Part shown: positions 40,226 to 64,000 of the stretch, in pieces
How the letters are laid out: each line of letters begins with the position of its first letter
Numbering within the stretch: position 1 is the stretch's first letter
Assembly: GCF_000004075.3 (NCBI RefSeq)
Contig: NC_026658.2
Location: forward strand, 26,152,075-26,216,074
DNA from: Cucumis sativus
Taxonomy: Eukaryota; Streptophyta; Magnoliopsida; Cucurbitales; Cucurbitaceae
DNA length: 64,000 nucleotides
Direction of reading: 5' to 3'
Made by a program: the position numbers and the translations under genes
Notes under the pieces: generated by a model
Databases searched by the model: none
Told to the model about the DNA's origin: nothing
The model's input: the letters and a program-made list of their open reading frames with translations, nothing else

Positions 40226-41559
40226 ATGGAGTGGCAGAATCAGCAGCAACAGAATCAAACAGAGCAATTGCAAATGCAGGTGGAGCAATTGAGCAACGCC
40301 GATGGAGTTGGTGGTCTCTACGTCAAGGTGATGACCGATGAGCAAATGGAGCTTCTCAGGCAGCAGATCTCTGTCTATGCTTCCATATGTGAGCAGCTCG
40401 TGGAGATGCACAAGGCAATCACCGCCCAACAGGACCTTGCGGGTCTCTCTTTTCTTATCTTTTTGCATTACTCTTCTCATTGATATTCTGTTTCATCTCC
40501 ATTTGTTTGGACCTACAACAATAGTTTTTTCTGTTAGATCTACTTGTCGTATAGGAAGTGAACTTTAAGACTAAATCTGGGTTTTAGAAAGTATCCTCCT
40601 CTAGTTCTGTTTCTGTTAATTGATTAAACTTTAATATTACCTGTTCCGTTTGCTGTAAACTATAATTGTAGGAATAAGCGGGACCCTTGCTCTTTGTTTG
40701 TTTCATCATCAGAACCATCTACTTATCTTTCCTGTTTCTCAATGCCTGGAGAAATGGACTCCTTTGGAAAATGAATTTTGCTCCTTAAACAGCTTTTATG
40801 CTTACTGGTTTCCAGGAATGAGGCTTGGGAATCTTTACTGTGATCCAATAATGGCATCTGCTGCTGGTCACAAGATAACTGCTAGGCAGAGGTGGACGCC
40901 TACACCTGTACAGCTTCAAATTCTTGAGCAGATCTTTGATGAGGGCAATGGGACCCCTAGCAAGCAGAAGATCAAGGATATAACTCTACAGCTGACACAA
41001 CATGGTCAAATTTCAGAAGCAAACGTCTATAATTGGTTTCAAAATAGAAGGGCTCGTTCAAAAAGAAAGCAAGCAAACTCATTACCAAATAATGCAGACT
41101 CAGAACCAGAGACAGAAGTTGATTCTCCAAAGGAGAAAAAGACTAAACCAGAAGCCTTCCAAACTTATGAACATTTGGTTCCGAAGTCCGGCAATATGTA
41201 CTCCCAGAGAACTGATTTAAGTACTGAAATACTTTCCTTTGATGCGCAGTCGAATAAAGGGGAGCCCATGTTTCAGTCTTTCGGATCTGGTCATACCAGT
41301 CAGATGACTCCAATACAAAATCATAGTATGTCACTCTGTTTTTTCAAGAGCTATACATTTGAACATTTCTTGAATTTTCTTCATCGGAAATTTCCATAAT
41401 GCAGCAATTATATATGAGTATGCTCAATCAAACATATATCATTTGTTGGTGTCTAATTCAACTTGTCAATGTGCAGGAAATAATATGTCGAATGATAAAA
41501 TGAACGTACCAGACTACTCTCCATACACTCCTTGTGAAGGATATCACTTGGTCGAGTGA
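40226..41559 (+). CDS. WOX13: WUSCHEL-related homeobox transcription factor, WOX13 (ancient) clade
   Basis: Nuclear homeodomain factor. Three exons join in phase into 269 codons: 40226-40442, 40816-41325, 41477-41559. The Gln-rich start ([14 protein letters not shown]) is followed by the clade-specific N-terminal block [17 protein letters not shown] and [20 protein letters not shown]. The atypical WOX homeodomain (about residues 96-160) reads [32 protein letters not shown] and [17 protein letters not shown]. The rest is acidic and Ser-rich, ending [13 protein letters not shown]. There is no WUS box, as expected for the ancient clade. An in-frame ATG at 40208 (MQKQRV) would add six residues. 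In Arabidopsis the corresponding position holds WOX14 and WOX10, members of the same clade. Confidence 0.95.
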
Positions 41560-42590
41560 CTGCTTGCCTTGAAGCTCATCCTGGAGGAATGTGCGAACTG
41601 ACACAGTACATATTACACTGCATGTATAAGGAAATTAAATTTTGAAAATGCTTGTAAGGCATTTTATATACGTGGTTATGAACTATATAGCTTATAGTAC
41701 TGCTTGAAACCAAATTTTGAAGGATTTGATTAAATACGTTACGTTACGTTTTGGTACGAAAGTGTTGTTTTCCTGCAATTTTCGTTATTTGCTTGATTCA
41801 GCTTGCATGATAATTAATTTTGCACCTGAGACGTAACAGACTGTCGACTCACCTAATCCCTGCAAGTGGATCATAAACAAAATGGTAAAAATCATAACTA
41901 ATGAATTTACAACGGAAACCAACCTTGAATTTGACTCCTCTCCCTGAGAAGTTTCATCTCTAGTCCAAGTGCTGCACAAAAGATGTAGAACTCAAAACAG
42001 ACCTGTAGTTGCGTCTGATGAATTAACTAGCCAAATGGCTAGAAAGTCGTACATGTTGCAACTTGCAACTTCATCCGGAATAATGATCAATATTCATGGC
42101 AAGTTTTATTTTTTCTTGAATGATAAAAACATTTACGAGAGACTATGAAGTTAAACCCATAACACTAAATTCAGAAAATTTCCACTTTGAGATCAACAAT
42201 CATACCCTCGATAAGGCATGGGAATTGTCTAACATTATTACTAGAGGGGATCTACAATGCTGTCCTATCCAAAACAGTGACAGCCTGACAAAACAATCAT
42301 GCAGAAACTATACAGAGGGCTTCACAACCCGGAAACAAATGATTAAGATAAATATGTAGTCAACTTTACAACTGTAGTATAAATGGACATAGATTAAGAG
42401 GTTCTTTTGTCTAGACACACACAAAAGCTTCCACCTTAGCTGCATTCTTTGAATGGTGAATTTGACCGATAGAAATTGCCAGATCTCCCATTATATCACC
42501 ACGTAAACATCCAGGCGATCTTATTAGCCTGGACTGCAGCCCAAAACAGTGGTTAAATTAAGCCAAGCAGAATGCCTCTAGATGAGTACT
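41560..42590. other. Intergenic region between the convergent WOX13-like and FANCJ copy A genes
   Basis: Contains the 3' UTR of both genes. From about 42134 onward it is duplicated at 52563 onward, so this marks the left limit of the FANCJ tandem-duplication unit. Confidence 0.6.
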
Positions 42591-45500
42591 TCATGAAGAT
42601 CCTTTCCTTCTGACTTTCAATTTAGTAGACCTCCAGCCGCCTGAGGTTAGCGGGCTAGGGGAGTATGAAAAATTTTCAATGGGTTCCATGACGGCATACT
42701 TACTCTTCGCTGAGCTACTAACGGGTGATACTTCCTGCAATAAAATTTTGGAATCATAGTCAGCCATCGTACTGATTTTAATTCATGCCGCAGTAACTAG
42801 TTAATTAACTTTAATTTCTCATTATATCACAATCGTTTACCTTGTTTATTGAAGCCTTTCCTGTATCAGCTTTGAGGTCTTGGATCTCCAAACAATCCAC
42901 GAAAAACATCACCTGCAAAATGAGGAGACGAGAAATGTAACCAAAAAAACTGTGGATAAAACTGTCATGATAAAGTTTGAGATGTTGAAACACAAAAAAT
43001 TCATAGTCATCTTCACAAAATATTAGAACTGAATAACACGTACTTTATTAAGTAATGGAATATTCGATGCATCGGTTGCCATGATCTGTACACCAATGCA
43101 ATTGTCACTGTAACAGAAGGGGCAAAAGACATAATTGTATACACAACCATCCTCCTCACTCCATATACCACGTCCTGAATTTTTCGAAGACCTAACTAGG
43201 AGCCTCTGGTTAACAAACAAGATGTCTGTAATAATAAGCTGTATACTTGCTGACGAATTGGCAGTTTGAGCTTTAAACCTTTCCTCATATATTGATATTA
43301 AGTGTGTTTTTGATGATACCGTAAATGAGCATGTTATGTTTAAATGGTTCTCTGGGCGACCGAGTGGGCTTCTACAAAGTGCACAAGATAGATGCAACTT
43401 TTTGTCCATTGGAAGGCCAGAAGACAGATAAACAGGACTAGTATCATTTAGCTTGGGCATTTGTGTGACATTTAAACCGTTAGACTTCTTTTCCGTGAGA
43501 AGAATTTCATAATTAGTATCTTTTGGGCTAGTCAAATTTCTGCTGATTATTGAGCTTCTGTCCACACTGTTACATTCGGGATTTTTGGTTTTGGGATCAG
43601 TAAGAAACTCTTCTTGAGCAAGTTTCGTAATAGTTATACCCATGGACTTCCTTCTTTTCTGGGTATGAGAATTTACACTCATATTCAAAGAAGATTCTGT
43701 ATCTTGTGCAAAGCTGTAGGCATTCACAGAAACATTTCTTTCAGGAGTATTCAGCATTGAAGTTTCAGATGTAAGAGGAGATCTTGTTGATTTGATCAGA
43801 GGTAATGACTGATGTGATAATTGATCAGAAAGCTCAGAATATGCCTCAATTACAGTTGAAGTCGATCTTTCATCTTTGGATTCTCTGGGACTAGTGGCGC
43901 CAACAATATCAACACAAGGAGTCTCCTGAACAATTGGGGAATCTGGAACTTCAAGAACGGTATTCATAGACAGAAACTCATGGTTCCTGCAATATGCAGT
44001 TGTTCAAGACCATTGCAAATGAAAAATGAATACTGATTGCTGAGTAGGGAGGTAATAAGAACACCAAATTATAAAGGCATGATAACTAATCAACCTTCTG
44101 ACTACAGTTCCTGTACAAACGTTGTTAGTGTTAAATCAAATTATGCACCAACATGGAAAAGCTAATGAATTTTCAGCTCTTCGTAGGCCATGCCAAAAAA
44201 ACACTTTAGCAAATGGAGTTCATATTTACCTCGTTTCTGTTTCAACACTGCACTCCAGATCAATTATACAGTTTTTCACATCTTCATGAGCCTGAAATAA
44301 AGCTTGTCATCAATATCAACTAGAAATTTCGATTGAAAAGAACAGGTATGATACTTTATCATTTTAGTACTAACTTTCTGCCCACGATGATTAAACTTGT
44401 CGAATTTCCCTATCTTCATTCTTCTACGACTACTTGGGCAGGTAGAAGTAATATGCTCCTCATTCTCAGAATTTGGCAACTCACTTTCTTTATTGTTGCT
44501 AATCCGCTCCTAAAATGAAACCCAACAATAATGTACCGTGATTTATTGCCTGACCATAAGTATGTAAAGGAAGAAATTAACACAGAAGAAGCAAGGACAA
44601 TATGTTCCAGACCTTAATGTGGCTGAAAAAGGATTTCAGCTCCTCCATAGACTGTTCAAAGTTATCAAATTGTTTAATGGATTTTCTTAGCCACTTAGAA
44701 ATGTAAGTCCTGTTCCTCTCTTCCTGGAAACGCTCATCTATTTGCCCAAAATAAAAGAAAGGGTGAAGAGCTATGGGAGATTTGTGTTAAGAAATGAGTC
44801 TACAGTGGAAAGTACTCTTTTAAGAAATAACAAGGAAATTTTAGATTTATCAACATGAATATAAGAAATACAATATTGAAACCATAGAACTAGTTAAAAT
44901 GTTACGGCCAAGGAATGACAGTGATAGACCCCCGATATTATATCAGTAAAGTAGGAGAGAGAAAGAAGTAACACGTGTGTGTAACACGTGAGGGATAAAA
45001 TGAGGTTTAGAAGTTAGTATAAATAAAGGCCAATAGAGGGGCGGGAAAGTTAGTTAAGATTTGAGTAAGGAGAGAGACTTTCACTGTTCTTCCTTGAAAG
45101 AGAGGTTAACAATAGAAGTGAGGAGAGACTGTAATCAGATTCTATTTCCATTCACTATCAATAATATTACATTCATATTACTACCTATGATTTCCATCAG
45201 GCAGCTTCCAAGCAAGTTTTGGAGGTCTTGTGTTCGAGTTAAATGGCTTGATTTCTTCCTCTAACCAGCACAAACAATCATGCATACAGCCTGACCAGTG
45301 AAGCTCGTATTTTTAATAGACAATAGAAGAAGTGAAATTAAAGAATTATTACCTAATAGCATAATGGCACCATAGTCAAATTTGTGTCGAATACAACGTC
45401 CTACAGAAAGAAATTGTTACAAATTATAGCAAGGTTATTTGCATGATGCCACTCCACATGAGCACCAAGAAAATGAAAATAAATAACAGCTACAAGCTAT

Positions 45501-48500
45501 ACCTGCAGCTTGATTTAGAGCTCGAAAGGCCTGTTGACAATACCACTCGTTTCCACTTAAAAGGTTTTTGGACATTTTATATGCGTCATTGAACTTTTTC
45601 TTCAATGCAACTTGAATATCATTTCTGAAAGGAATTATAAACAAATAATCAAAATATTGTATGGTATATTTTCTTTCCAAAAAAAATAAGTTAAGGATAA
45701 AGTTCTTACACATTTGGAAATGGAATACCAACTATTATCTGAATATGTTAGTTAAGAATTTCTATAAATATAAATAAAAAGCAAATGTTCAACTTCACTG
45801 ACACTGACTTCATGACTTACAAGTCAAATTCATTCATAATATGACAACGGACCCAAGGCAATCTCCAACACTAGGAAAGATAGATGATGCTTAAAAGAGG
45901 AAAGGATACAACCACTCTAGCATTATCATCAGAAAAGTCTATTCCTTCTGAAACCTGCAAGTACAACAAAGCAATTTAGGATATGTAAATCACATTATAA
46001 CATCAATTCATGGATCTTTTTATTTTAAGATCTAATTAGATATTTAAACGTCTTAGTTTAATTTTCAAGAACCAAGCTGAGGGTCATACTGAAACTGGCG
46101 ACTTCTTCTTATTGAAGATCATTGCTAAATGAAGTTCTTACATATTTCTTAACAAGAGGAAAAGAAAAGAAAAACATATGATGCGTGCAAAACTGCAAGC
46201 TGCATATAAACATTCGTAGTTGTTTTGAGCCGTCAGGACAACAAGGTTTATCATTGCCATTAAGAAACATGGAAAAGCGGTTGAACATCAAGTAATCAAA
46301 AGGAACACACCTTTCCTCGAAAAACTGCAAGGAGTGCTGCACCCTCCTTGGGATTTTCACAGCCAACCACATACGAGTCATTGGGTTTGACCTTCTTGCC
46401 TCGACTCTTTTTCCCAATTGCAAAGTTATCACCAAGACGTATAGTATCATAATAACCTTTCAATATGGAATCAAAATCCTCTTGAGCTCCTCCTCTTGGC
46501 TCTGTACAAAACCATTGAAAAGATTTGAATTCTTAATGCAACATGCAGAAAGAAAAAGAAAAATTAATAAATATAGGTACGCAAGAAACATTATATAATT
46601 CAACTCGTCTCGAATGACAAAATACCAGCAAAATATATATACACTAGCCTAAAATAAGTTTTCCAGTGCGTATCTTACCAACAAAAAGGGACTTCCTTGC
46701 ATTCAGTCGAGACCATTGGCCAGTTTCAGACCAACGATTTTGGAGTTTCTCCATCAGCTTATAACTGGGGAAGAACACAAGACAGCCACCAGGAGCGATG
46801 AAAAATATCTCCTCTAATGATTTTCCTAGAGCATCCTTTAAGAAAATGGCCAGTATAAGACAAGAAAAACCTAACATATAAATTTACATCGATCACGAAG
46901 TTCCAAAAATACCTGGAATGCATATCCATCAGCTGTTTTATAACTTCCATTCAGCGGATAGTTTCCTGGACCAGTTGATATAACAGCTGGCCACACCTGC
47001 AGTACAATTGTTGATAGGTCAAAATTTAACAGTTGCTGGAATGGAAAAACCAGAAATAAGAAAAGTCCACTTGAACCTGAGATTCCACATCAATCACGTG
47101 AGGAGCTTCCAGTGAAGTTCCAAACTGAACTCCTAGTTCAGATGAAAAGGAATTCATCGGTGACAGGGTCCTAATTATTTGAAATCAGAAATGATTAATT
47201 GTCTTCTTCGGCACATATATAATATACCTTACCAAAAGAAAATGTAGGAAAGAGAGAAAGCACTGTAAAATTTAAAGAAGCATCTAAATTTTCATACTTT
47301 CAAGCGTCAACTCAATATAGTCTAGAAATCTGCTAAACAACCAACTTATAGTCAATCTAACAACTCTAATCATTGAGAAACTGCAGGTTTTATTCTTCCA
47401 AAAGAAGAGGATATGTTAAAATTGAATTTAACATGGCTGAAGAGCATGGCTGTAGAAGCCAAGAATGAAGATATTTTATAGACTGCATAAACTATATGAT
47501 ACATCATATTCCACTTTTCAAGTTTATGTGCTCACCCAGATGTCAAAATAACCGATAAGGAAAGATCACTAATGTCTCTAAATACAACAGCTGGATTCAA
47601 GCACCACAAACTTAAAGTAACCGTCCATTCAGCATAAGCTTTTCCTGAAATAAAATACAAATATAATTTTGTAAAAAAAAATTGTTTGTACAAATAAACA
47701 AAAAAAAAAAAACTAAAACCATTTCAAACTAAAAAAAAGGTGACAAGAGTTTTCTTTCTTATTCTCAAGGTATAAGATCCAGTGAAAACTGTCTTCTCTT
47801 GAAAAGCCTAATAGCAAGTCAGTTATAGTCTCCAGATAACATCAGACAAACTAATTAAAAAAAGGTAACAGAACTATAACCAATGGCTGAAAGTTATGAC
47901 AAGCTGTGAATTAAGAAGACTGAGCAACTGATTACCAGGATCTCTTTTAATGTAGCGTTGTAATGCAAGCTGGTAGTCAGACATGTGGCAACCATTTCTT
48001 GAGAAGAAATATGTCAGTGAAGAGAATAATCCTGCATCGTATAAATTGGTCAACGTCGAAAGTTTGATATAAAAATAAAGCAAATGTTGCACATAGTAGT
48101 CTCTTACCTTCCAGTGTTATCACTGACAGGCCACTCAAATGTGCATCATCTGACTCGGTATCTGAAGCTGCTTTAATAGCCTTAAACAAGCATACAGTGA
48201 AACTTCAAGGTAATGAGAATAAAATGAAAGGTCCCCCAAATAATTCAAAGAACCCAACAGAATCAGGATACCTTTGTTGCACATTCGAGCAAAATGGGGA
48301 AGCATTGTTGAGTTATATTAGCTTCTTGGAGCTCCCTTTGAGCATGATTTCCAGTCCAACTACAACATTCATAAACGTAGAAATGGAATATCTCATAGAC
48401 CTATGTTGTCAAACTGATACCAACTACTAGAGAGGTCGAATGCACCATTTTTAGAAAAGAGTAAGTCAGACATGCATGTTTATTGAAGGGCTCAAAGTGT

Positions 48501-51355
48501 GAAAAGAAACACATTTAATCTGAAATCTATACCCAAAATGTTTTAAATGCACAATCTACACCAAGAAATTCAGTTTAAATCAATTTCGTCCATGGATCAA
48601 AGAATCTTGAATGAGAAAAAGTGAATTATATGATATTATGTTCTAAATACACCAATATAATGCAAAGAAAAACTATATGCAACTAAGAAATCAAATGCTA
48701 CAGCAAAACCAGTAAGATTTTCTTTCTTCACTCACCAGGTGACATAATGCTGAAACTCGCGCTTTTGCAATGTGGTCTTCCTCTGGTCAATCCAACTTGT
48801 GAGATCCTAAAAGTTCAGTTAGACTTCTAAATATCAAAAGATCTTCTGAGATGTTTGCAAATAATTCTAATTAATTATACTAATTACCTGTGTCATTTCA
48901 TACAGAGGCTGGTAAACCAAAGAATCAATAGGACATAGGTCCTCCAACTCCATCTGCAATTCTTTGAAAGATGTGAAATGCAAGCCATGAGAAAATATTT
49001 TTCTCAACTCATCAAACAAAATAGTATAATTTCAGTGACTTACTATTTAAAGTATCCTCTTCAATATCCACACTACCACCATGACGTGCAATATCCTCTA
49101 TATTGCTGAAAAGTGAAAACAGAATAAACTAATTAATTGTCTGCATTTGCCACCTATCTCATGAACTTACCATCAAACTGAGGTAAAAGGAAACACATAA
49201 TGTATGGATGCTAGTACACATACTGGGCTTCATCAAAGATCACGATTGCACCCTTAATATCTACATCCATTGCTCCTCGAATAACTGGATTGATAATATA
49301 GCTATATGGGCAAAACACCAGCTGCGCGTCGTCTGCCATAGAGCGAGCTGCATAATATGAACAACCTAAAGAGGATAAAGAAATTAAGTTAAATAAGTGA
49401 TGACAACATAAGACAGGTTAAACACCTAAAAGATCAAGGATTAACCTTTTACAGCTTCTCCAACTTTCACCAAATCTTCAATGTCATGAACCTCATGACA
49501 TCCTCCTTTCTGAAGAGTTGGATGACATTTAACCTTGTTTGCGTTTCTTTTAGAGAAATGAAAAGTATTTATCTTCCTTTGTTGATCGCCTTAAGTCAAG
49601 TAATAATTGAGAGAAATAAATTGATGAAGAAATGGGATAAAGATAACTCACTTAAATTCACTGCATCCTGCAATTTGATCCTTCAAAAGTAGTTTGCTGG
49701 TAGAGTACAACAAATTTTACAGTGAAAAGGAGAATATAAAATGAATTAACTGGAAAAAGACAAAGAAAGAAAGAAAAAGGTGCCTTTAAGAGAAATATGC
49801 ACCATTCTTCATCCAAATTATCTTTTCCTCGTACATAAGGATTTGTGCATAGATGTTTCCTTGATGCCTGATGATAAGAAGGGGGTTAGTAAGATAACAG
49901 TAAAGTATAACCTAACAAGGACCACCCAGAAATGTATTGCAGCTGAACCATATCTGACAGGAGAGGAAGTCAGGGGATTCTTACAACCCAAAACCAGCTA
50001 ATTCAACTTCTCAAATTTCTTCAATGCATAATCTCATACAATATGTACACACACACACGTGTTAAAGCGGTGACATACCAACACTGCCATTGGCACTCGA
50101 TAGGCAGTTTTCCTATACTCACGAATCACCTGTGATATCTGTGAATGTGTCCTCCTTGAATAAGAAAACGTAAAGCATTAGCATCAAATGTAGATGACAA
50201 AAATAATTTTCCAAGCCCTTGTTTCAAATTGCAGTAAGTTGAACTTACGAGGCGTAGTATATAGTCGGGGCTGTTTTTTTCTTCTGACTTTTGTTGTTTG
50301 GCCCTGGAAGAGACGACTCAGTATCTGTAGACAGTAGAAAACCCAACATATTCCTCAGAAGAAGTAACTGGCCCATAAAACACAAAAAGCATAAAAAATC
50401 AAATATATGTTATAAGAAAGAAAGAAAAAAGTGAGTAAGGTTAATCTATTGTCAGCTGAGGTTCTTCCATCAGAAGAAATTTCAGTACAAATGACAAAGA
50501 GCCCCATGTAAAAGAAAAGCTTCCGATCATCCGCATTTCACAATGGCTATTTTTCAGTAATCGTTTAAAAGATGATATTCCATGGTAAATAGAAGAAAAA
50601 CAATTTGTTCCAACCTTAGTGTGCCCACGTATTATTTCACTCTTTCTCAACGTTATCCGTCCATAAAAAGAAAAGGCAAAAAGAAAAAACCAACCATCCC
50701 AAGATCAATTAACCGTCCAAAGAGGTAGCGATTTTAAGATACTTAACACTTTTTGTTGCAAGCGATGCGCAACGAAATATATGTCGTCCTAAGCTATTGC
50801 CCTAAATATAATATCCTCACGGTATAAGCCTGAAGAGCTCGCAAGGGGAACCCAGTAACACAAAAATAAAAATGTCCATGAACTTTAAACCAATCTTTTC
50901 TATGTCTCTACCTGACCACTCAATTGAATTCGTGCATTCGAGATGTTCGGATAATCAGGGTAAAGACATGCAAACTTACTTGGCGTCTGCACTTCGGGAA
51001 TGAATCCACCGCCAAAACCGAGAGGATCTGTGGCAGCCTCTGGAGCAGCCTTCGTGTGACAGGGATTAGCATCCGGATTCTTTATCTTGTAATTCTTCTG
51101 CCAAGCAAGACTAGAGCAGAGAAGTGAAAGTGACTTCCCGGTTCCAGTCGGAGATTCCAGCAACGCGTGGCAATGGCCCTCTCGCTGAGCTCGATCAAGG
51201 GTGGATATAACTCTGCCCATGAACGCAAGCTGCGAACCGTATGGTCGGAATGGAAATTCCACTTGGATGCCACCAATCGGGTAAACATTCTTCGTGAGCT
51301 GATAAGTTGGATTGGGCTTGGATTTGGGGTTCGTCCCCCCTTTTGCATATACCAT
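42591..51355 (-). CDS. FANCJ: FANCJ/BRIP1-type Rad3 (XPD-family) DNA helicase, copy A, intact
   Basis: 5'-3' iron-sulphur helicase of interstrand-crosslink repair and recombination. Twenty-eight GT-AG exons join in phase into 1,233 codons: 50980-51355, 50249-50324, 50079-50154, 49803-49867, 49652-49696, 49446-49546, 49224-49365, 49044-49105, 48888-48961, 48736-48806, 48272-48359, 48108-48180, 47936-48031, 47536-47644, 47077-47170, 46913-46996, 46679-46835, 46311-46501, 45913-45954, 45710-45738, 45503-45624, 45353-45400, 44613-44737, 44375-44509, 44230-44291, 43044-43986, 42841-42912, 42591-42734. Walker A is SPTGTGKS (71-75); motif Ia YASRTHSQ; four iron-sulphur Cys at about 183, 198, 209 and 248; DEAH at 291-294, its His codon split by an intron; motif VI QAAGRCIRH at about 722-730. 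The C-terminal region carries [11 protein letters not shown]...FCPFC, possibly a metal-binding module. An LTR sits in intron 22. Confidence 0.93.
44922..45199 (+). mobile_element. Solo LTR (or TRIM-like) insertion in intron 22 of FANCJ copy A
   Basis: A 278-base insertion starting TGATAGACCCCC and ending CCATCA, with TATAAATA at 45018 and a polyadenylation-like 'caataatatta' near the end: the plan of an LTR in plus orientation. It is flanked by GACAG (44917-44921) and GGCAG (45200-45204), a 5-base target duplication with one mismatch. Copy B has the empty site, a single GGCAG at 54758-54762. No internal retroelement sequence follows. It contains two ACACGTG motifs and GGGCGGGAAA. Confidence 0.85.
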
Positions 51356-51650
51356 TTTGGCAGTGTTGCACAGGACTTGCCGGGTGGGAATATTCGAACT
51401 CCTTGAGAGCTACCTAGCTTGGTAAACTACACGATCGACGATGGAGTTCTGTGATGGGTTCGATTTGGTGGTGGTTTCTTGGAAAGCTTTGGCGGGAAAA
51501 GTTAGGGTTTATCGTACTTGAAATTGGCGGTAAACAGTATAATTGGTTCACCTTGCAATGAACGGTGAGGCTCTTGTTTGAAAAGACTCTTCTGTCCTTT
51601 GTGGCCAACGTCCGTAAAGGTTACCGTTTAGGCCGAATTGAAATCGTTTC
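51356..51650 (-). promoter_or_regulatory. Duplicated proximal promoter of FANCJ copy A
   Basis: About 240 bases upstream of the start are nearly identical to 60703-60950 of copy B, ending at 'ggccgaattgaaatcg'. Beyond that the two flanks are much more diverged. The region includes the E2F-type sites and the 5' leader. The copy A leader has AGG where copy B has an extra upstream ATG. Confidence 0.6.
51488..51534 (-). promoter_or_regulatory. E2F-type sites in the FANCJ copy A promoter
   Basis: Minus strand reads TTTCCCGCCAAA (51488-51500), a canonical E2F site, about 135 bases upstream of the ATG. A weaker TTTACCGCCAA follows at 51524-51534. The first is kept exactly in copy B. E2F control would fit S-phase expression of a repair helicase; this is inference. 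Confidence 0.65.
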
Positions 51651-51714
51651 TTTCTTTTTCTTTGGTAATGCAACCGATGATTTGGTACCATTTTTAAGAT
51701 AATTAATATTTGGA

Positions 51715-51835
51715 AACATTCTATTTAAAATAGTAAAATAAATTAAAATATTTACAAATTATCGGAAAATTTTAGATTTTATTGGATAAAATTCGTTATA
51801 GATTATAAATATTTTTTAAAAAAATTAAATATTTA
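51715..51835. repeat. AT-rich dispersed repeat copy 2
   Basis: Contains 'aaaatagtaaaataaatt', 'aaaatatttacaaatt' and 'gttatagattataaatatttt', matching the repeat at 13430 and at 60975. It lies in the upstream flank of FANCJ copy A. Confidence 0.5.
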
Positions 51836-52401
51836 ATTAAGATATATCTTTTAATGTCTTATTTTCAATTATACCTGTAAGCAATCCAATTTTCAATCGA
51901 GTTTTTTCCTCCATGAGGAGAATATCTCAATTTTCTCGATTTCAATAAAATTTATAGAAAAAATTGATAGTTTAAGAAATAGTACCAAATTACTATTTTT
52001 ATTTGATGTGCTTGCATTGACATTTACACATGTATTTTGGGTATAACATATAAGACTACTTTATCGATTTGTAGTGAAAATTGGAATAATAATGAAATTT
52101 CATTAGTAAATCAATTCCAATAAACGGTGAATCACAAACACAATTCATTGTTTTGGATTGCTTTTACCTAAAAAGATGAGTTTTATCAAATTTAATATTA
52201 CCATTGTGGTTTAGGTTATGTTATATGGTTATACAAATCATAACAGAAACGGTACCAAAAAAGATTAATTATAATATATAGAGTATAGCTTGTGACAATA
52301 ATTAAAAAGATGATACCTTTCAAATAAATATAAAGCTTATTCTAATTATAATCAACACTATGATCAGAATTTAAAAGAAAATACATACAGAAATATTGAT
52401 T

Positions 52402-52562
52402 AAAAGATCATAACGTGATTTATTGTTTGACCATAGGCATGTAAAGGAAGAAAATAACACAGAACCAAGGAAAAATGTGGCTGAAAAGGGATTTCAGCTC
52501 CTCCATAGACTGTTCAAAGTTATCAAATTGTTTAATCGATTTTCATAGCCACTTTGAAATGT
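52402..52562 (-). pseudogene. Orphan fragment of FANCJ intron 23/exon 23 at the duplication junction
   Basis: Matches about 44528-44705 of copy A and 54368-54538 of copy B: 'gtgatttattg', 'catgtaaaggaag', 'atgtggctgaaaa', then 'ggatttcagctcctccatag' and 'caaattgtttaat'. It lacks about 20 bases of intron, breaks off inside exon 23, and joins directly at 52563 to sequence equivalent to 42134 in the 3' flank. It is therefore a third, minimal copy left at the junction of the two duplication units. Confidence 0.8.
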
Positions 52563-53023
52563 ACGAGAGAGATCATGAAGCTAAACCCAAAACACTAAAT
52601 TCAAAAAATTTCCAGTTTGAGATCAACAATCATACTCTCGATAAGGCATGGAAATTGTGTTAACATTATTGATAGAGGGAATCTACAATGCTGTCCTAGC
52701 TATAACAACATGATAGCATGACAAAACAACCATGCAGAAACTATACAGAGGGATTCACAACCCGGAAACAAAAGATCGAGATAAATATGCAGTTAACTTT
52801 ACAATATTAGTACAAATGATCATAGATTAAGAGATTTTTTCGTCCAGACGCACACCGACTCTTCTACCTTAGCTGCATTCTTTGAATGGTGAGTTTGACC
52901 GATAGAAATTGCCAGATCTCCCATTATATCATCATGTAAACATCCAGGCGATCTTATTAGCTTGGTCAGCAGCCCAGGACAGTGGTTAAATTAAGCCAAG
53001 CAGAATGCATCTAGACGAGTACT

Positions 53024-53952
53024 TCATGAAGTTCCTTTCCTTCTGACTTTCAATTTAGTAGACCTCCAGCCGCCTGAGGTAAGTGGGCTAGCGGAGTAAG
53101 AAAACTTTTAAATGGGTTCCATGACAGGCATACTTATTCTTAGTTGAGCTACTAGCGGATGATACTTCCTGCAATAAAATTTGGAAATCAAAGACAGCTA
53201 TCATACTGATTTTAGTTCATGCCACAGTAACTAGTTAATTAACCTTAATTTCTCATTATATCACAATCGTTTACCTTGTTTAATCAAGCCTTTCCTGTAG
53301 CAGCTTGGAGCTGAGGTCTTGGAGCCGAGGTCTTGGAGCTGAGGTCTTGGATCTCCAAACACCCCACGAAAAACATCACCTGCAAAATGAGGAGACGAGA
53401 AATGTAACCAAAAAGAAGTTGTGGATAAAACTGTCGTGATAAAGTATGAGATGTTGAAAATAAAAAAAAAAAATCCATATTCATCTTCTTGAAATATTAG
53501 AACTGAATAACATGTACCTTATAAAGTAACGGTATATTTGATGCATTAGTTGCCATGATCTGTACACCAATACAATTGTCACTGAAACAGAAGGGGCAAA
53601 AGACTTAATTGTATACACAACCATCCTCCTCACTCCATATACCACATGCTGAATTTTTCGAAGACCTAACTAGGAGTCTCTGGTTAATAAACAAGATGTC
53701 TGTAATAATAAGCTGTATACTTGCAGACGAATTGGCAGTTTGAGCTTTAAACCTTTCCTTATATATCGATATTAAGTGTGTTTTTGATGATACAGTAAAT
53801 GAGCACGTTATGTTTAAGTGGTTCTCTGGGCGACCGAGTGGGTTTCTACAAAGTGCACAAGATAGATGCAACTTTTTGTCCTTCGAAGGCCAGGTGACAG
53901 AAAAACAGGAACAGTATCATTTAGCTTGGGCACTTGTGTGACATTTAAACTG
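53024..53952 (-). pseudogene. Relic of the FANCJ copy B C-terminal coding region
   Basis: Homologous to copy A exons 26-28 but downstream of the copy B stop. Further damage: a TAA replaces the Tyr codon after DGCVYN (near 53608), exon 27 carries a 14-base minisatellite, and a one-base insertion in the last exon (AT GCC TGTCATGG against GCC GTCATGG) shifts frame and stops it early. The Cys motif LSCALCRNPLG is still readable at 53840-53871. Several independent lesions show relaxed constraint here. Confidence 0.85.
53307..53348 (-). repeat. 14-base minisatellite in the exon 27 relic of copy B
   Basis: Three units of ggag(c)(t/c)gaggtctt where copy A has a single 'gaggtctt'. With adjoining changes the insertion totals 33 bases relative to copy A. 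Confidence 0.85.
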
Positions 53953-56900
53953 TTAAACTTCTTCTGTGAGAAGGATTTCATCACTAGTATCTTTTGGGCT
54001 AGTCAAATTTCCACTGATTGCTGAGCTTCTGTCCACACTGTTACATTCGTGATTTTTGGTTTTGGGATCAGTAACAAACTCTTCTTGAGAAATATCAACT
54101 GTACAGTTTTTCACATCTTGGTGACCCTGAAATAAAGCTTGTCGTCAATACCAACTAGAGATTTCGATTGAAAAAAACAGGTATTGTACTTCATTATTTT
54201 AGTACTAGCCTTCTGCCCACGATAATTAAACTTGTCAAATTCCTCTATCTTCGTTCTTCTACAACTACTTGGGCAGGTAGAAGTAATATGCTCCTCATTC
54301 ACAGATTTTGGCAACTCACTTTCTGTCTTGTTGCTAATGCGCTCCTAAAATGAAACCCAACAATAATGTACCGTGATTTATTGCCTGACCATAAGTATGT
54401 AAAGGAAGAAATTAACACAGAAGAAGCAAGGACAATATGTTCCAGACCTTAATGTGGCTGAAAAAGGATTTCAGCTCCTCCATAGACTGTTCAAAGTTAT
54501 CAAATTGTTTAATGGATTTTCTTAGCCACTTTGAAATGTAAGTCCTGTTCCTCTCTTCCTGGAAACGCTCATCTATTTGCCCAAAACGAAAGAAAGGGTG
54601 AAAAGCTGTGGGAGATTTGTGCATTAAATAACCTCATGACTCTACCATGGAAAATACTCTTTTAAGAATGACAAGGAAATTTTAGATTTATCGACATGAA
54701 TATAGGAAATACAATAATGAAACCATAGAACTAGCTAAAATGTTGTGGCCAAGGAATGGCAGGTTCCAAGCAAGTTTTGGAGGACTTATGTACGAGTTAA
54801 ATAGCTTGATTTACCCAGCACAAACAATCTTATAGTTAATAGGCAATGGAACAAGTTAAATTAAGGCAATTATTACCTAATAGCACAATGGCACCATAGT
54901 CAAATTTGTGTCGAATACATCGTCCTACACAAAGAAATTGTTACAAATTATAGCAAGGTTATTTGCATGATGCCACTCCACATGAGCAACCAAGAAAATG
55001 AAAATAAATGACAACAGCTACAAGCAATACCTGCAGCTTGATTTAGAGCTCGAAAGGCTTGTTGACAATACCACTCATTTCCACTTAAAAGGTTTTTGGA
55101 CATTTTATATTTGTCATTGAACTTTTTCTTCAATGCAACTTGAATACCATTTCTGAAAAGAATTATAAATAAATAATCAAAATATTGTATGGTATATTTT
55201 TTTTCCCCAAAAGTAAAGTAAGGATAAAGTTCTTACATATCTGGAAATGGAATACCAACTATTATCTGAATATGTTCGTTAAGAATTTCTCTAAATAAAT
55301 ATTAAATGTTCAACCTTACTGACACTGACTTCATGACTTACAAGGCCAATTCATTCATATTATGACAATGGGCCTAAGGCAATCCCCAACACAAGGAAAG
55401 GTAGATGATGCATAAAAGAGGGAAGGATACAACCACTCTAGCATTATCATCAGAAAAGTCTATTCCTTCTGAAACCTGCAAGCAAAACAAAGCAATTTAG
55501 GATATGCAGATCATATTATAAAATCAATTTATGGATCTTTTTATTTTAAGATCTTATTAGATCATTAAATGTCTTTTTTTTTCAAGAACCAAGCTGAGAG
55601 TCATACTGAAATTGGCAACTTCCACCTATTGAATAATTGTTAAATGAAGTTCTTACATATTTCTTAACAAGAGGAAAAGAAAAGAAAAACATATGATGCG
55701 TGCAAAACTGGAAGCTTCATATAAACATTCATAGTTGTTTTGTGCCGTCAGGACAACAAGGTTTTATCATTGCCATTAAGAAACATGGAAAAGTAGTTGA
55801 ACTTCAAGTAATCAAAACGAACACACCTTTCCTCGAAAAACTGCAAGGAGTGCTGCACCCTTGGGATTTTCACAGCCAAAAACATACGATTCATCGGGTT
55901 TGACCTTCTTCCCAACTGCAAAGTTATCACCAAGACGTATAGTATCATAATAACCTTTCAATATGGAATCAAAATCTTCTTGAGCTCCTCCACATGGCTC
56001 TGTACAAAACCATTAAAAAGATTTGAATTCTTAATGCAACACGTAGAGAAAAAAAGAAAAATTAATAAATATAGGTATGCAAGAAACATTATAGAATTCA
56101 ACTCATCTTGAATGACAAAATACCAACAAAATATATATACACTAGCCTAAATAAGTTTTCCAGTGCGTATCTTACCAACAAAAAGGGACTTCCTTGCATT
56201 CAGTCGAGACCATTGACCAGTTTCAGACCAACGATTTCGGAGTTTCTCCATCAGCTTATAACTGGGGAAGAACACAAGACAGCCACCAGGAGCGATGAAA
56301 AATATCTCCTCTAATGATTTTCCTAGAGCATCCTTTAAGAAAATGGCCAGTATAAGACAAGAAAACCTAACATATAAGTTTAAATCGATTATGAAGTTCC
56401 AAAAATACCTGGAATGCATATCCATCAGCTGTTTTATAACTTGCATTCAGCGGATAGTTTCCTGGACCAATTGATATAATAGCTGGCCACACCTGCAGTA
56501 CAATTGTTGATATATAGGTCAAAATTTAACAGTTGCTGGAATGGAAAAACTAGAAAGTAAGAAAAGTCCATTTGTACCTGAGATTCCACATCAATCACGT
56601 GAGGAGCTTCCAGTGAAGTTCCAAACCGAACTCCTAGTTCAGATGAAAAGGAATTCAACGGTGACAGGGTCCTAATTATTTGAAATCAGAAATGATTAAT
56701 TGTCTTCTTAGGCACATATATAATATACCTTACCAAAAGAAAATGTAGGAGAGAGAGAAAGCACTGTAAAATTTAAAGAAGCATCTCAATTTTCATACTT
56801 TCAAGCGTCAACTCAATATAGTCTAGAAAACTGCTAAATAACTGACTTATAGTCAATCTAACAACTCTCATCATTGAGAACCTGCAGGTCATATTCTTCC

Positions 56901-59900
56901 AGAAGAAAGGAGAATATGTTAAAATTGAATTTAACATGGCTGTAGAAGCCAAGAATGAAGATATTTTATAGACTGCATAAACTATATGATACATCATATT
57001 CCACTTTTCAAGTTTTATGTGCTCACCCAGATGTCAAAATAACCGATAAGGAAAGATCACCAATGTCTCTAAATACAACAGCTGGATTCAAGCACCACAA
57101 ACTTAAAGTAACCGTCCATTTAGCACAAGCTTTTTCTGAAATAAAATATAAACATAACTTTTATAAAAACTATATATGTAAAAACAAACAAAAAAAATTA
57201 AACTATTTCAAACTAAAAAAAAGGCGGCTGAAAGTTATGGTGGGCAGTGAATTAAGAAGACTAAGCAACTGATTACCAGGATCTCTTTTAGTGTAGCGTT
57301 GTAATGCAAGCTGGTAGTCAGACATGTGGCAACCATTTCTTGAGAAGAAATATGTCAAAGAAGAGAATAATCCTGCATTGTATAAATTGGTCAATGTTAA
57401 AAGTTTGGTATAAAAACAAAGCAAATGTTGCACACGGTAGTCTCTTACCTTCCAGTGTTAACACTGACAGACCACTCAAATGTGCATCATCTGACACCGT
57501 ATATGAAGCTGCTTTAGTAGCCTTAAACAAGCATATGGTGAAACTTTAAGATAATGAGAGCAAAAAGAAAGGTCCCTCACATAACTCAAAGAACCCAACC
57601 GAATCAGGATACCTTTGTTGCACATTCGAGTAAAATGGGGAAGCATTGTTGAGTTATATTAGCTTCTTGGAGCTCCCTTTGAGCATGATTGCCAGTCCAA
57701 CTACAACATTAATAAACGTAGAATAGGATATCTCATAGACGGATGTTGTCAAACTGATATCAACCACTAGAGAGGTCGAATGCACCATTTTTAGAAAAGA
57801 ATAAGTCAGAATGCATGTTTATTGAAGGACTCAAAGTGTGAAAAGAAACACATTTAATCTGAAATCTATACCCAAAATGTTTTAAATGATAATCTACATC
57901 AAGAAAATCAGTTTAAATCAATTTCTTCCTTGGATCTAAGAATTTGGAATAAGAAAAAGTGAATTATATGATATTATGTTTTAAATACACCAATATGATG
58001 CAAAGAAAAACTATATGCAACTAAGAAATTAAATGCTACAGCAAAACCTGTAAAATTTTCTTTCTTAACTCACCAGGTGACATAATGCTGAAACTCGCGC
58101 TCCTGCAATGTGGTCTTCCTTCGGTCAATCCAACTTTTGAGATCCTAAAAGTTCAGTTAGACTTCTAAATATCAAAAGATCTTTTGAGATGTTTGCAAAT
58201 AATTATAAGTAATTATACTAATTACCTGTGTCATTTCATACAGAGGCTGGTAAACCAAATAATTAATAAAACATAGTTGCTCTAACTCCATCTGCAATTC
58301 TTTGATAGATGTGAAATGCAAGCCATGAGATATTGTTTTTCTCAACTCGTCAAACAAAATAGTATGATTTCATTGACCTACTATTTAAAGTATCCTCTTC
58401 AATATCGACACTACCACCATGACGTGCAATATCCTCTATATTGCTGAAAAGTGAAAACAGAATAAACTAATTAAATGTCTGCACATGCTACCCATCTCAT
58501 GAACTTACCATCAAACTAAAGTAAAAGAAAACATGTAATGTATGGATGCTAGTACACATACTGGGCTTCATCAAAGATCACAATCGCATCCTTAACATCT
58601 ACACCAATTGCTCTTCGTATAACTGGATTGATAATATAGCTATATGGGCAAAACACCAGCTGTGCGTTGTATGCCATAGAGCGAGCTGCATAATATGAAC
58701 AACCTAAAGAGGATAAAGAAATTAAGTTAAATATGTGATGACAACATGAGACATGTTAAACACCTAAAAGATCAAGGATTAACCTTTTACAGCTTCTCCA
58801 GTTTTCACCAAATCTTGAATGTCATGAACCTCATGACGTCCTCCTTTCTGAAGAGTTGGATGACATTTAACCTTGTTTCCGTTTCTTTTAGAGAAATGAA
58901 AAGTATTTATCTTCCTTTGTTGATTAATTTAAGTTAAGTAATAATTGAGAGAAATAAATTGATGAAGAAATGGGATAAAGATAACTCACTTAAATTCACT
59001 GCATCCTGCATCTTGATCCTTCAAAAGTAGTTTGCTGGTAGATTACAACAAATATTACATTGGAAAGGAGAATATCAAATGAATTAACTGGAAAAAGCAA
59101 ACAAAGAAAGAAAAGATGCCTTTGAGAGAAATATGCACCATTTTTCATCTAAATTATCTTTCCCTCGTACACGAGGATTTGTGCATAGATGTTTCCTTGA
59201 CGCCTGATGATAAAAAGGGGTTAGTAAGACAACAGTCCAGTATAACCTAACAAGAACCACCCAGAAATGTATTGCAGTTAAACCATATCTGACAGGAGAG
59301 GAAGCCAGTGGATTCTTACAACCAAAGTCAGCTAATTCAAGTTCTCAAATTCCTTCAATGCATAATCTCATACAATACGTACACACGCACACACGTGTTA
59401 AAGAGGTGACATACCAACACTGCCATTGGCACTCGATAGGCAGTTTTCCTATACTCACGGATCACCTGTGATATCTGTGAATGTGTCCTCCTTGAATAAA
59501 GAAAATGTATAGCATTAGCATCAAATGTAAATGAGAAAGACGATTTGAAAAGAAAAAAATCCAAGCCCTTGTTTCAAAGTCCAGTAAGTTGGAACTAACG
59601 AGGAGTAGTAAATGGTCGGGGCTGTTTTTTTCTTCCGAATTTTGTTGTTTGGCCCTGGAAGAGATGACTCTGTATCTGTAGACACTAGAGAACCCTTAAT
59701 ATTCCTCAGAAGAAGTTACTGGTCCATAAAACACAAAGCATAAAAAAGCAAATACGTATATATATTTAAATTTTTTTTTTAAAAAAAAAGTGAGCAATGT
59801 TACTTTATTGTTAGCTGACGTCCTTCCATCAGTAGAAATTTCAGTACAAATGAGAAAGAGCCGCATGTAAAACAAAAGCTTGCCATCATCCGCATTCCAC

Positions 59901-60702
59901 AATAGCTATTTTTCATTAAGCGTTTGAAAGATGATATTCCATAGTGAATAGAAGAAAAACAATTTGTTCCAACCTCTGGGTGCCCACGTATTATTTCACT
60001 CTATCTCAACGTTATTCGTCCATAAAAAGAAAAAAGAAAAAACCAACCATCTTCAGATCAAATTAACCGTCGAAAAAGTTAACAGTTCAAGATACTTGAC
60101 AGTTTTTGTTGCAAGCTATGCGCAACGAAAATATATGTCGTCCAAAGCTACCCTAAATACATCCTCACGATAAACAGTAAACCATAAACCAATTTTTTCT
60201 ACGTCTCTACCTGACCACCTAATCGAATTCGTGCGTTCGATATGTTCGGATGAACAGGGTAAGGACATGCACACTTACTTGACGGCTGCACTTCGGGAAT
60301 AAATCCACCGCCAAAACCGAGAGGATTCGTGGCAGCCTCTGGAGCAGGCCTCGTGTGACAGAAATTAGCATCCTGATTCTTTATCTTGAAATTCTTCTGC
60401 CAAGCAAGACTAGAGCAGAGAAGTGAAAGTGACTTCCCGGTTCCAGTCGGAGATTCCAGCAACGCGTGGCAATGGCCCTCTCGCTGAGCTCGATCAAGGG
60501 TGGATATAACTCTGTCCATGAACTCCAGCTGCGAACCGTATGGTCGGAATGGAAATTCCACTTGGACGCCACCAATCCGGTACACATTCTTCTTAAGCCG
60601 ATAAGTTCGGTTGGGCTTGGATTTAGGCTTCCTCCCCCCTTTTGCATAGACCATTTTGGCAGTATTACACAGAACTTTTCGAGTGGGGTTATTCGAACTC
60701 AT
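53953..60702 (-). CDS. FANCJ-type helicase copy B: intact helicase core, C-terminus truncated
   Basis: Tandem paralog of the neighbouring FANCJ gene. All exons equivalent to 1-23 keep open frames and splice sites; exon 18 lacks 15 bases (five codons) without frame change. The core has SPTGTGKS, the four iron-sulphur Cys, DEAH (split by an intron), and QAAGRCIRH motif VI. Start: ATG at 60702 (MSSNNPTRK) or 60654 (MVYAKGG, equivalent to copy A). After exon 23 the gene decays. Intron 24 has a GC donor in place of GT. Most of exon 25, intron 25 and the first 370 bases of exon 26 are deleted, and a 2-base deletion then gives a stop at 53953. If intron 24 is retained, the stop falls at 54111. A protein of about 780-860 residues without the C-terminal region could still be made; whether it is expressed is unknown. 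It could equally be called a pseudogene. Confidence 0.75.
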
Positions 60703-60789
60703 TTTGAGCTACCTAGCTTGGGGAACTACACGATCGACAGTGGAGTTGTGTGCTCGGTTCGATTTGATGGTGGTGGTTTCTTGAAAAGC

Positions 60790-60801
60790 TTTGGCGGGAA
60801 A
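60790..60801 (-). promoter_or_regulatory. E2F-type site in the FANCJ copy B promoter
   Basis: Minus strand TTTCCCGCCAAA, identical to the site at 51488 in copy A. The second, weaker element has changed (ttggcggtag). The duplicated promoter extends over about 60703-60950. Confidence 0.65.
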
Positions 60802-60974
60802 GGTGAGGGCTTATCGTACTTGAAATTGGCGGTAGACAGTATAATTAGTTCATCTTGCAATGAACGGTGAGGCTCTTGTTTGAAAAGACTCTTCTGTCCT
60901 TTGTGGCCAACGGCCGTAAAGGTTACCGTTTAGGCCGAATTGAAATCGATATTTTTTAATATCGATACTTTCAT

Positions 60975-61125
60975 AATATTCACCTAAAAAATAGCAAATT
61001 AAATTAAAATATTTACCGGCTACAACAAAAAAAATTATTATGTTGGTGATAGTCTTCTATTACTATAGCATATTAATGACTATCGATGATATAATTTGTT
61101 ATCGTTTGTAAATATTTTGTAAAAT
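60975..61125. repeat. AT-rich dispersed repeat copy 3
   Basis: Contains 'aaaaatagcaaattaaatt', 'aaaatatttacc' and 'gttatcgtttgtaaatatttt', with the same order of anchors as the repeats at 13430 and 51715. It lies upstream of FANCJ copy B in the position equivalent to copy 2, so it was present before the tandem duplication. Confidence 0.5.
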
Positions 61126-61449
61126 CTACTTATTTTTTTAAAAAGAAATTAAAAGATATTCGATTTTATATTATTATTCCATTTTTTTAATGGGCGTGCT
61201 TGACATTTACACATGCAATTATAAGATAATTGTGATAGAAAATTGGTATAATCGTAATAAAAATTCATTGGTAAATCAATCATAGTCAATTATAATCATA
61301 AATGAAGTTATATTTATTAATTTGACCGTGTTTATCTAAAAATATGAACTTTGTCAATTTTAATACTACCATTGTGGTTTGGGTCATAGTTAACCCAAAC
61401 TATATCGAAAGCGATGTTAATAAACAAAAAAATTTATCTTGAAATGTAA

Positions 61450-63091: not shown

Positions 63092-64000
63092 ATGGCATTC
63101 GGCGCTTCCCGGCGTCTTATTCCCTATCAACTCAGAGCCTGCTTTTTGGGGCTTATTGCCAGTGGCAGGTATCACTATCCCTTAATCCACTCGCCGTCGC
63201 CGGCTTTATCATACTTGTTTTCAACCCTAGATGAACCATCAAATCTATTTGATGATGGTCTTTCGGGTAATGGGGATCGAAATCAACGCTGCATAGACGA
63301 GCGATTCGTTATCAGTGAACTTTCTGATCTTCTACTAGTTAATCCTTATGGTTCGGTTTATAACACTCTCAAAGAGAATTCCATTGAGAAACAGATGCCA
63401 GTTAGGGCAGTTGATGGATTCTTGCTTCCAGAAGAGAAATTGCGAGGTGTTTTCCTTCAAAAACTGAATGGTAAAACCGCAATTGAGCATGCATTAGCTA
63501 ATACTGATGTGATTTTGAGTCAAGATGTTGTCAGCAAAGTATTAAACACTGGGAGTTTAGGTAGCGAAGCAATGGTTACCTTCTTTTATTGGGCTATTAA
63601 ACAGCCGTCGATACCTAAAGATGCTTCTAGTTACAACATAATTCTTAAAGCTTTAGGTAGAAGGGGTTTTTTTGACTCCATGATGGATGTTTTGTACAAC
63701 ATGACACGGGAGGGAGTGGAGGCTACATTGGAAATGGTCTCCATTGTAGTAGACAGTCTGGTCAAGGGTCACCAAGTTTCTAAGGCACTTCAATTTTTCA
63801 GAAACTTGAAAGAAATTGGGTTGAAATGTGATACTGAAACCTTGAACATTCTTCTACAATGCATGTGTCGACGATCCCACGTTGGTGCTGCAAACTCCTT
63901 CTTTAATTTAACCAAGGGGAATATCCCTTTCAATGTCATGACATATAACATTGTAATTGGTGGATGGTCAAGATACGGTAGGCACGGTGAAGTTGAGCAA
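63092..64000 (+). CDS. Pentatricopeptide-repeat (PPR) protein, 5' part only
   Basis: Open frame of 303 codons from the ATG at 63092 to the window edge with no stop, no intron and a P-class PPR pattern. PPR proteins bind organellar RNA sequence-specifically. The first 40 or so residues (MAFGASRRLIPYQLRACFLG) are basic and hydroxylated, suggesting mitochondrial or plastid targeting. A linker with AVDGFLLPEEKLRGVFLQKL and TFFYWAIKQP precedes repeats recognisable by their starts: SSYNIILKALGRRGFFDSMM, then EMVSIVVDSLVKGHQVSKAL, TLNILLQCMCRRSHVGAANS, and MTYNIVIGGWSRYGRHGEV at about 35-residue spacing. It resembles At5g43820-type proteins as I recall them; that match is tentative. Confidence 0.9.
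   Translation, partial: MAFGASRRLIPYQLRACFLGLIASGRYHYPLIHSPSPALSYLFSTLDEPSNLFDDGLSGNGDRNQRCIDERFVISELSDLLLVNPYGSVYNTLKENSIEKQMPVRAVDGFLLPEEKLRGVFLQKLNGKTAIEHALANTDVILSQDVVSKVLNTGSLGSEAMVTFFYWAIKQPSIPKDASSYNIILKALGRRGFFDSMMDVLYNMTREGVEATLEMVSIVVDSLVKGHQVSKALQFFRNLKEIGLKCDTETLNILLQCMCRRSHVGAANSFFNLTKGNIPFNVMTYNIVIGGWSRYGRHGEVEQ

Follow-up and report, generated by a model that had tools for sequence, protein, structure and literature searches.

The window analysed here, 64,000 nucleotides of Cucumis sativus DNA (C4:26152075-26216074, within an 88-contig genome of 226.6 Mb), contains two direct, head-to-tail copies of one FANCJ-type helicase gene on the minus strand, copy A at 51355..42591 and copy B at 60654..53024. 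Copy A is intact, copy B combines an open helicase core with a broken C-terminal tail, and the core of copy B carries fewer disabling lesions than predicted for neutral sequence. The explanation we favour, with modest confidence, is that copy B is a tandem duplicate encoding, now or until very recently, a core-only helicase. Copy B would be either such a helicase or a gene that recently stopped mattering, and we put the former ahead. Tandem duplicates of this type, young and open in the core with a tail lost later, are already known; young tandem duplicates commonly decay, and here the decay halts at a domain border.

Copy A was modelled by dynamic programming that combined anchor peptides with codon usage and splice sites. 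Manual correction followed, in which splice sites and homology fixed the boundaries of exons 1, 6 and 22. Automatic models with 32 and 29 exons were dropped for their spurious pieces, and one spurious exon was removed. The resulting features are as follows.

42591..51355, minus strand: copy A, FANCJ-type Rad3-family helicase gene, 28 exons, 1233 amino acids (splice-aware model)
51355-50980, 50324-50249, 50154-50079, 49867-49803, 49696-49652, 49546-49446, 49365-49224, minus strand: copy A exons 1-7, from high to low coordinate
49105-49044, 48961-48888, 48806-48736, 48359-48272, 48180-48108, 48031-47936, 47644-47536, minus strand: copy A exons 8-14
47170-47077, 46996-46913, 46835-46679, 46501-46311, 45954-45913, 45738-45710, 45624-45503, minus strand: copy A exons 15-21
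45400-45353, 44737-44613, 44509-44375, 44291-44230, 43986-43044, 42912-42841, 42734-42591, minus strand: copy A exons 22-28

The coding sequence of 3702 nt (1233 codons without the stop) has a single, terminal stop codon and 27 introns, all GT-AG, which bears out the preliminary description of this locus as a direct tandem FANCJ pair with an intact copy A open over 28 exons. The predicted protein matches Helicase_C_2 (173.9 bits) and DEAD_2 (151.4 bits), both above the Pfam cut-offs. A PDB search, performed with copy A only, returned 16 matches, none naming RTEL1; the top match was human FANCJ (9ej9, 530 bits, E 9.1e-158), nearer than XPD (152 bits) or CHL1 (150 bits). As judged by sequence similarity, copy A is a FANCJ. 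Like human FANCJ/BRIP1, with which 309 of 701 aligned residues are identical (copy A residues 24-797, gapped), it is a Rad3-family helicase with iron-sulphur (Fe-S) cysteines: C183, C198, C209 and C248 precede the DEAH motif, align with cysteines of the human protein and are presumably the Fe-S ligands. Eight DEAD_2 matches were found in the genome, one in each FANCJ copy and six in three places on contig C7, which we take to be the remaining, untyped members of the Rad3 family. Exon 17 DNA and exon 26 DNA each match these two loci only in the 226.6-Mb genome.

Projecting the exons of copy A onto copy B delimited the retained core.

54448..60654, minus strand: copy B exons 1-23, open helicase core of 776 amino acids, without stop or frameshift, introns GT-AG

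These exons are free of stops and frameshifts, every GT-AG site is preserved, and two deletions, of 15 and 3 nt, are both in-frame and both in exon 18. Helicase_C_2 (171.9 bits) and DEAD_2 (149.8 bits) again exceed their cut-offs, the scores falling by only 1.6-2.0 bits from copy A to copy B. Copy B had been described as keeping the helicase motifs including the iron-sulphur cysteines, and indeed copy B matches copy A at the four cysteines and at the residues that we take to be Walker A, DEAH and motif VI.

Beyond exon 23 the condition of copy B is different, as the alignment to copy A reveals.

53024..54344, minus strand: copy B tail, remnants of exons 24-28
54208..54209, minus strand: intron-24 donor changed from GT to GC
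54093..54094, minus strand: point of a 636-bp deletion (copy A 44258-43623)
53965..53966, minus strand: 2-nt deletion in exon 26
53881..53882, minus strand: 1-nt deletion in exon 26
53605..53607, minus strand: TAA at A-codon 1133, within the Yippee-like domain of copy B
53304..53351, minus strand: 14-bp repeat expansion in exon 27, +33 nt, in-frame
53284..53286, minus strand: TGA at A-codon 1183, exon 27
53108..53110, minus strand: TAA at A-codon 1206 (in the frame of copy A), in exon 28 and preceded by a 1-nt insertion near 53126

In total there are eight damaging changes in exons 24-28 (the GC donor, the 636-bp deletion, three frameshifting indels and three stops), in agreement with an earlier claim that the C-terminal region was lost through at least five lesions. 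The large deletion takes away the final part of exon 25, all of intron 25 and the initial 364 nt of exon 26, fusing exons 25 and 26 in-frame. If the GC donor is spliced, the frame would end just past the 2-nt deletion in exon 26, giving a predicted protein of 878 amino acids; retention of intron 24 would give 853. Rescue of the tail by the 2-nt and 1-nt deletions, which sum to three, was ruled out by stops both between and after them.

The number of lesions expected in the core was estimated from introns 1-22, which contain 39 indels in 4397 nt, of which 33 have a length not divisible by three; half of the intron indels were scaled to the core, assuming that introns and exons share one rate and that half of the events fell on copy B. 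If neutral since duplication, the copy B core should have acquired 8.8 frameshifts (6.1 without homopolymers), 3.6-4.4 stops by simulation and 3.5-4.3 splice-site hits among 92 bases, and none of any class was observed. The total expectation is about 13 disabling lesions against zero seen, so that for most of its existence copy B kept an open core, through selection against truncation or, with lower probability, through gene conversion. For the more diverged exons 1-10 alone, 2.9-4.1 frameshifts, 1.9-2.1 stops and 1.5-1.9 splice losses were expected and none of each was observed, the chance of zero for these figures taken singly exceeding 0.05 in three of four pairs. The small disabling lesions of copy B are not spread across the gene, as they would be in a plain pseudogene: six lie in the 960-nt tail and none in the 2328-nt core, which is 2.4 times longer. 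Given the first, the probability that the remaining five also fall in the tail is 0.0021 by length and 0.012 with dS weighting, in a test framed after the pattern was seen.

Constraint at the level of amino acids is weakly indicated. Over 775 codons of exons 1-23 the synonymous divergence (dS) between the copies is 0.076 and the non-synonymous divergence (dN) 0.042, a dN/dS of 0.56 (0.37-0.88) by the NG86 method; codon maximum likelihood (ML) gives 0.63, with twice the log-likelihood difference (2dlnL) against a ratio of 1 being 4.61. This comparison, proposed in the preliminary description as a check, thus falls below 1, as a mean of both branches that can't clear copy B alone. We regard the counting of lesions as the stronger evidence, and the proposal of a selectively preserved core accordingly stands as regards truncation and is weakly supported as regards amino-acid sequence. 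An excess of CpG decay in copy B, as a mark of silencing, was overall not seen across three classes of region: sites kept only in B against only in A number 13 and 6 in core exons, 19 and 21 in introns, and 4 and 8 in tail exons.

Both copies share exons and introns, as had been reported. A global alignment of the copies with their flanks gave 92.0% identity (7698 matches in 8366 aligned columns), with exons at 94.3% (3288 columns) and introns at 91.2% (4253 columns); the retained introns exclude a processed origin for copy B. The homologous units begin at 42137 (A) and 52567 (B). The following features bear on how the pair arose.

51351..51646, minus strand: upstream region of copy A homologous to that of copy B, 90.3% identical over 299 columns
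60650..60948, minus strand: upstream region of copy B homologous to that of copy A (alignment)
52411..52563, plus strand: junction filler, an extra exon 23/intron 23 piece, directly oriented and adjoining the 3′ flank of copy B
44922..45199, no strand assigned: solo long terminal repeat (LTR; TG..CA, flanks GACAG/GGCAG) present in intron 22 of copy A but not of copy B, found by sequence inspection

A shared promoter, also proposed earlier, holds for about 300 bp; further out the similarity is weak (73%), reaching to about 52223 (A) and 61392 (B), and 51 of 364 columns differ across the whole aligned upstream stretch. A further in-frame ATG, 16 codons before the common start (60655-60702), is found in copy B but is absent from copy A. 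Intron divergence between the copies is 0.093 (Jukes-Cantor), and plant substitution rates are 6.5e-9 to 1.5e-8 per site per year, so that at these rates the duplication would be 3 to 7 million years old. The LTR has matches at at least 36 other places in the genome (36 of 43 matches listed, with 40 of 154 candidates scored), among them seven pairs 4-5 kb apart, as for the LTRs of whole elements; its insertion into copy A probably postdates the duplication.

Under the explanation that we favour, a single FANCJ gene would have been duplicated in tandem, perhaps by break-repair or template-switch, with the 150-bp exon 23 piece left as filler at the joint by the duplicating event. We read 52411-52563 in this way; alternatively, it may be the remnant of a lost middle copy. 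Both copies would have been full-length for a time, after which copy B would have lost its C-terminal tail, comprising a linker and a Yippee/Mis18-like cysteine domain, with the Fe-S helicase core staying open. Copy B would encode, or until very recently have encoded, a core-only helicase of about 853-878 amino acids, presumably transcribed, made and active, that still binds and unwinds DNA without whatever the tail docks onto; selection, rather than conversion, would be the cause of the open core. Copy A would still be an ordinary FANCJ.

Several observations weigh against this explanation, and some of them would suit a copy B that is a plain, recently dead pseudogene, killed by its tail lesions with no time for the core to break. 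For the core of a helicase the pairwise dN/dS of 0.56 is, in our judgement, high, and the test against 1 is modest. The copies differ at 66 of 775 core codons, and at the 16 where human FANCJ agrees with one of them copy B is the changed copy 12 times (two-sided P 0.077), with N683D and D686G, in a conserved stretch, among the changes; these human-polarised sites point to relaxation in copy B. One of the two Arabidopsis homologues, FANCJA, is hardly expressed and has no detectable role in crosslink repair (PMC6550410). However, a recently dead gene should break at random, yet the six small lesions all lie in the tail and none in the 2.4-fold longer core. Since about 13 lesions are expected over the life of copy B and three expected lesions mark the 5% limit, copy B can hardly have been free of constraint for more than about a quarter of that life. 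We consider a recent pseudogene possible, but improbable.

Polarisation was also carried out with two dispersed fragments on contig C1, about 40 kb apart, which served as outgroups for 203 and 94 exon columns, respectively.

C1:18237547-18238038 and C1:18235309-18235350: dispersed fragment of FANCJ exons 8-10, in pieces split by 2.2 kb, 84-86% identical
C1:18277217-18277428: dispersed fragment of FANCJ exon 15 and flanking intron, in pieces 92-96% identical to A and B

The exon-15 fragment agrees with human FANCJ, with copy B changed at two exon sites and copy A at none (introns, four and three). The exon 8-10 fragment, slightly closer to copy B (86.2%) than to copy A (84.1%), polarises 12 exon differences in the opposite direction from human FANCJ, with A changed at 10 and B at 2. 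At 18 intron differences A is changed at 10 and B at 8, and the contrast between exons and introns is not significant (P 0.24). This fragment's own changes are oddly exon-rich (31 of 203 exon columns against 12 of 288 in introns, P 3e-5). A search for an outgroup to the copy-A segment found no relative among viral contigs. Within exons 9-10 (48736-48961) the copies differ at 12 of 145 positions, nine of the 12 differences being non-synonymous, and in introns 9 and 10 at 3 of 81 and 24 of 373; these exons may be a fast-changing part of what we take to be the Arch domain.

A further alternative is that the core of copy B was kept open by conversion from copy A and not by a function of its own. 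The copies share an identical run of 192 bp in exon 23/intron 23 (44505-44696 against 54340-54531), longer than the longest run (162) in any of 2000 permutations, and gene conversion has therefore probably occurred. Divergence is also low around exons 15-18, and dS is 0.049 for exons 11-23 against 0.107 for exons 1-10. Conversion might thus have helped to clean the core of copy B, again counting against a function for the core. As the whole cause, however, it is quite unlikely: the more diverged exons 1-10 are also without lesions, and sparing of the core alone is not expected unless conversion tracts favour the core. The identical run involves the same part of the gene that was copied into the tandem junction, which raises the question of a conversion hot spot. 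Finally, an assembly or haplotype artefact, for which nothing speaks except that a single assembly was used, is very improbable given the 8% divergence, the absence of N in the window, the location of A and B 9.5 kb from each other on a single contig, the LTR private to A, the deletions private to B and the private junction sequence, and the assembly error considered in the preliminary description can be set aside as unlikely.

What copy B has lost includes a cysteine-rich domain resembling Yippee/Mis18.

43044..43409, minus strand: Yippee/Mis18-like cysteine-rich domain, part in copy A exon 26, continuing into exon 27 (42912-42841)

PF03226 matches the whole copy A protein at residues 1083-1179 with 17.7 bits. 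When residues 1040-1190 are searched by themselves, copy A scores 24.5 bits (E 3.1e-5) and its counterpart in copy B 19.5 bits, and none of seven shuffles with the cysteines fixed matched. Neither copy A score reaches the curated cut-off of 26.6, and by that rule the domain is not a member of the family. Like the Yippee/Mis18 zinc domain (PF03226; Mis18, YPEL, FAM72), the copy A tail has two CxxC pairs, CALC at 1049 and CPFC at 1136, which are kept in the counterpart of copy B and would be putative zinc ligands; it differs in its score below the cut-off and in the spacing of the pairs, 87 residues apart. A genome search with PF03226 located seven further sites with E values up to 1, of which three exceeded the cut-off, and missed the FANCJ domain. 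AlphaFold2 models did not provide a usable test of a beta-tent fold (mean pLDDT confidence 35.7 with one sequence and 38.7 with two), a PDB sequence search with residues 1040-1190 of copy A gave six matches at chance level (best E 0.57), and no relatives of the domain were found among plasmids. To our knowledge no Yippee-like domain is present in human FANCJ, which docks via short motifs in a long tail. A limited literature search, including one review, found no report of a Yippee/Mis18-like domain in FANCJ. In human cells the FAM72 proteins are reported to be Mis18/Yippee paralogues that bind RPA (PMC11377751), and a Yippee-type domain on a repair helicase would therefore make sense.

The divergence of the tails suggests when this domain was lost. 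In the cysteine-rich segment of exon 26 (102 codons, stop excluded) there are 12 synonymous and seven non-synonymous differences, a dN/dS of 0.138 (0.05-0.39), and with the stop counted as an eighth P is 0.007-0.02 if copy B was neutral throughout. Because this low ratio is found even though the segment lies behind stops in copy B, constraint probably acted on both tails for some time, the tail of copy B breaking later. For the whole tail (314 codons, excluding gapped and stop codons, mostly those in the 636-bp deletion) dN/dS is 0.53 (0.32-0.99), with ML giving 0.61 (2dlnL 3.09).

The earlier statement that Arabidopsis also has two FANCJ-like genes proved correct. FANCJB (At1g20720) has 30 exons and is functional, and FANCJA (At1g20750), for which expression is very low and no crosslink-repair role was found, has 25 (Dorn et al., PMC6550410). 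The two proteins are 66.2% identical, two genes lie between them (PMC6550410), and the pair has been called a tandem duplication (PMC4132730). WOX10 is At1g20710 (PMC6526479), next in number to FANCJB, and a homeodomain open reading frame (ORF) here stops some 1.2 kb away from the end of the copy A coding region; together these suggest the same neighbourhood.

40698..41399, plus strand: neighbouring homeodomain ORF, WOX-like by eye (PF00046, 59.4 bits)

Both species thus have two FANCJ homologues at one locus, and the Arabidopsis member with fewer exons is the one with very low expression. The Arabidopsis pair differs in its 66.2% identity and its two intervening genes, whereas the cucumber copies differ at 66 of 775 core codons and no gene was seen between A and B. 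From these differences in divergence and arrangement, the cucumber duplication is most simply separate from and younger than the Arabidopsis one. The earlier suggestion that this locus duplicates repeatedly is therefore plausible, with the qualification that the Arabidopsis pair looks older and separate. In the exon counts alone, FANCJA is five exons shorter than FANCJB, as many as copy A has in its tail (24-28), and a similar loss of the tail may have taken place there too. A broader proposal is that the C-terminal Yippee/Mis18-like zinc domain of plant FANCJ would recruit it to chromatin or partners, and that plants would more than once have made a tandem, tail-less FANCJ paralogue acting as a free helicase core, uncoupled from such recruitment; this we consider unlikely.

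The interest of the locus lies in the clean break at a domain border, the possible Arabidopsis parallel and the lost Yippee-like domain: it shows, at one place, which half of a helicase for genome stability can be lost. Additions to the preliminary description are this domain, the gene-conversion tract, the exon 23 filler at the junction and the dispersed FANCJ fragments. If expressed, copy B would be a natural separation-of-function allele and a natural test of the usefulness of a core-only helicase. If the Yippee/Mis18-like tail is real, it would provide a defined docking domain for plant FANCJ.

Elsewhere in the window, a second neighbour of the pair was found.

63092..64000, plus strand: PPR protein, open at the window end (PF13041, 55.1 bits)

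In addition, a sterol-sensing/Patched-type ORF was observed at 3464-4075 (PF12349, 83 bits), perhaps part of an NPC1-like gene.

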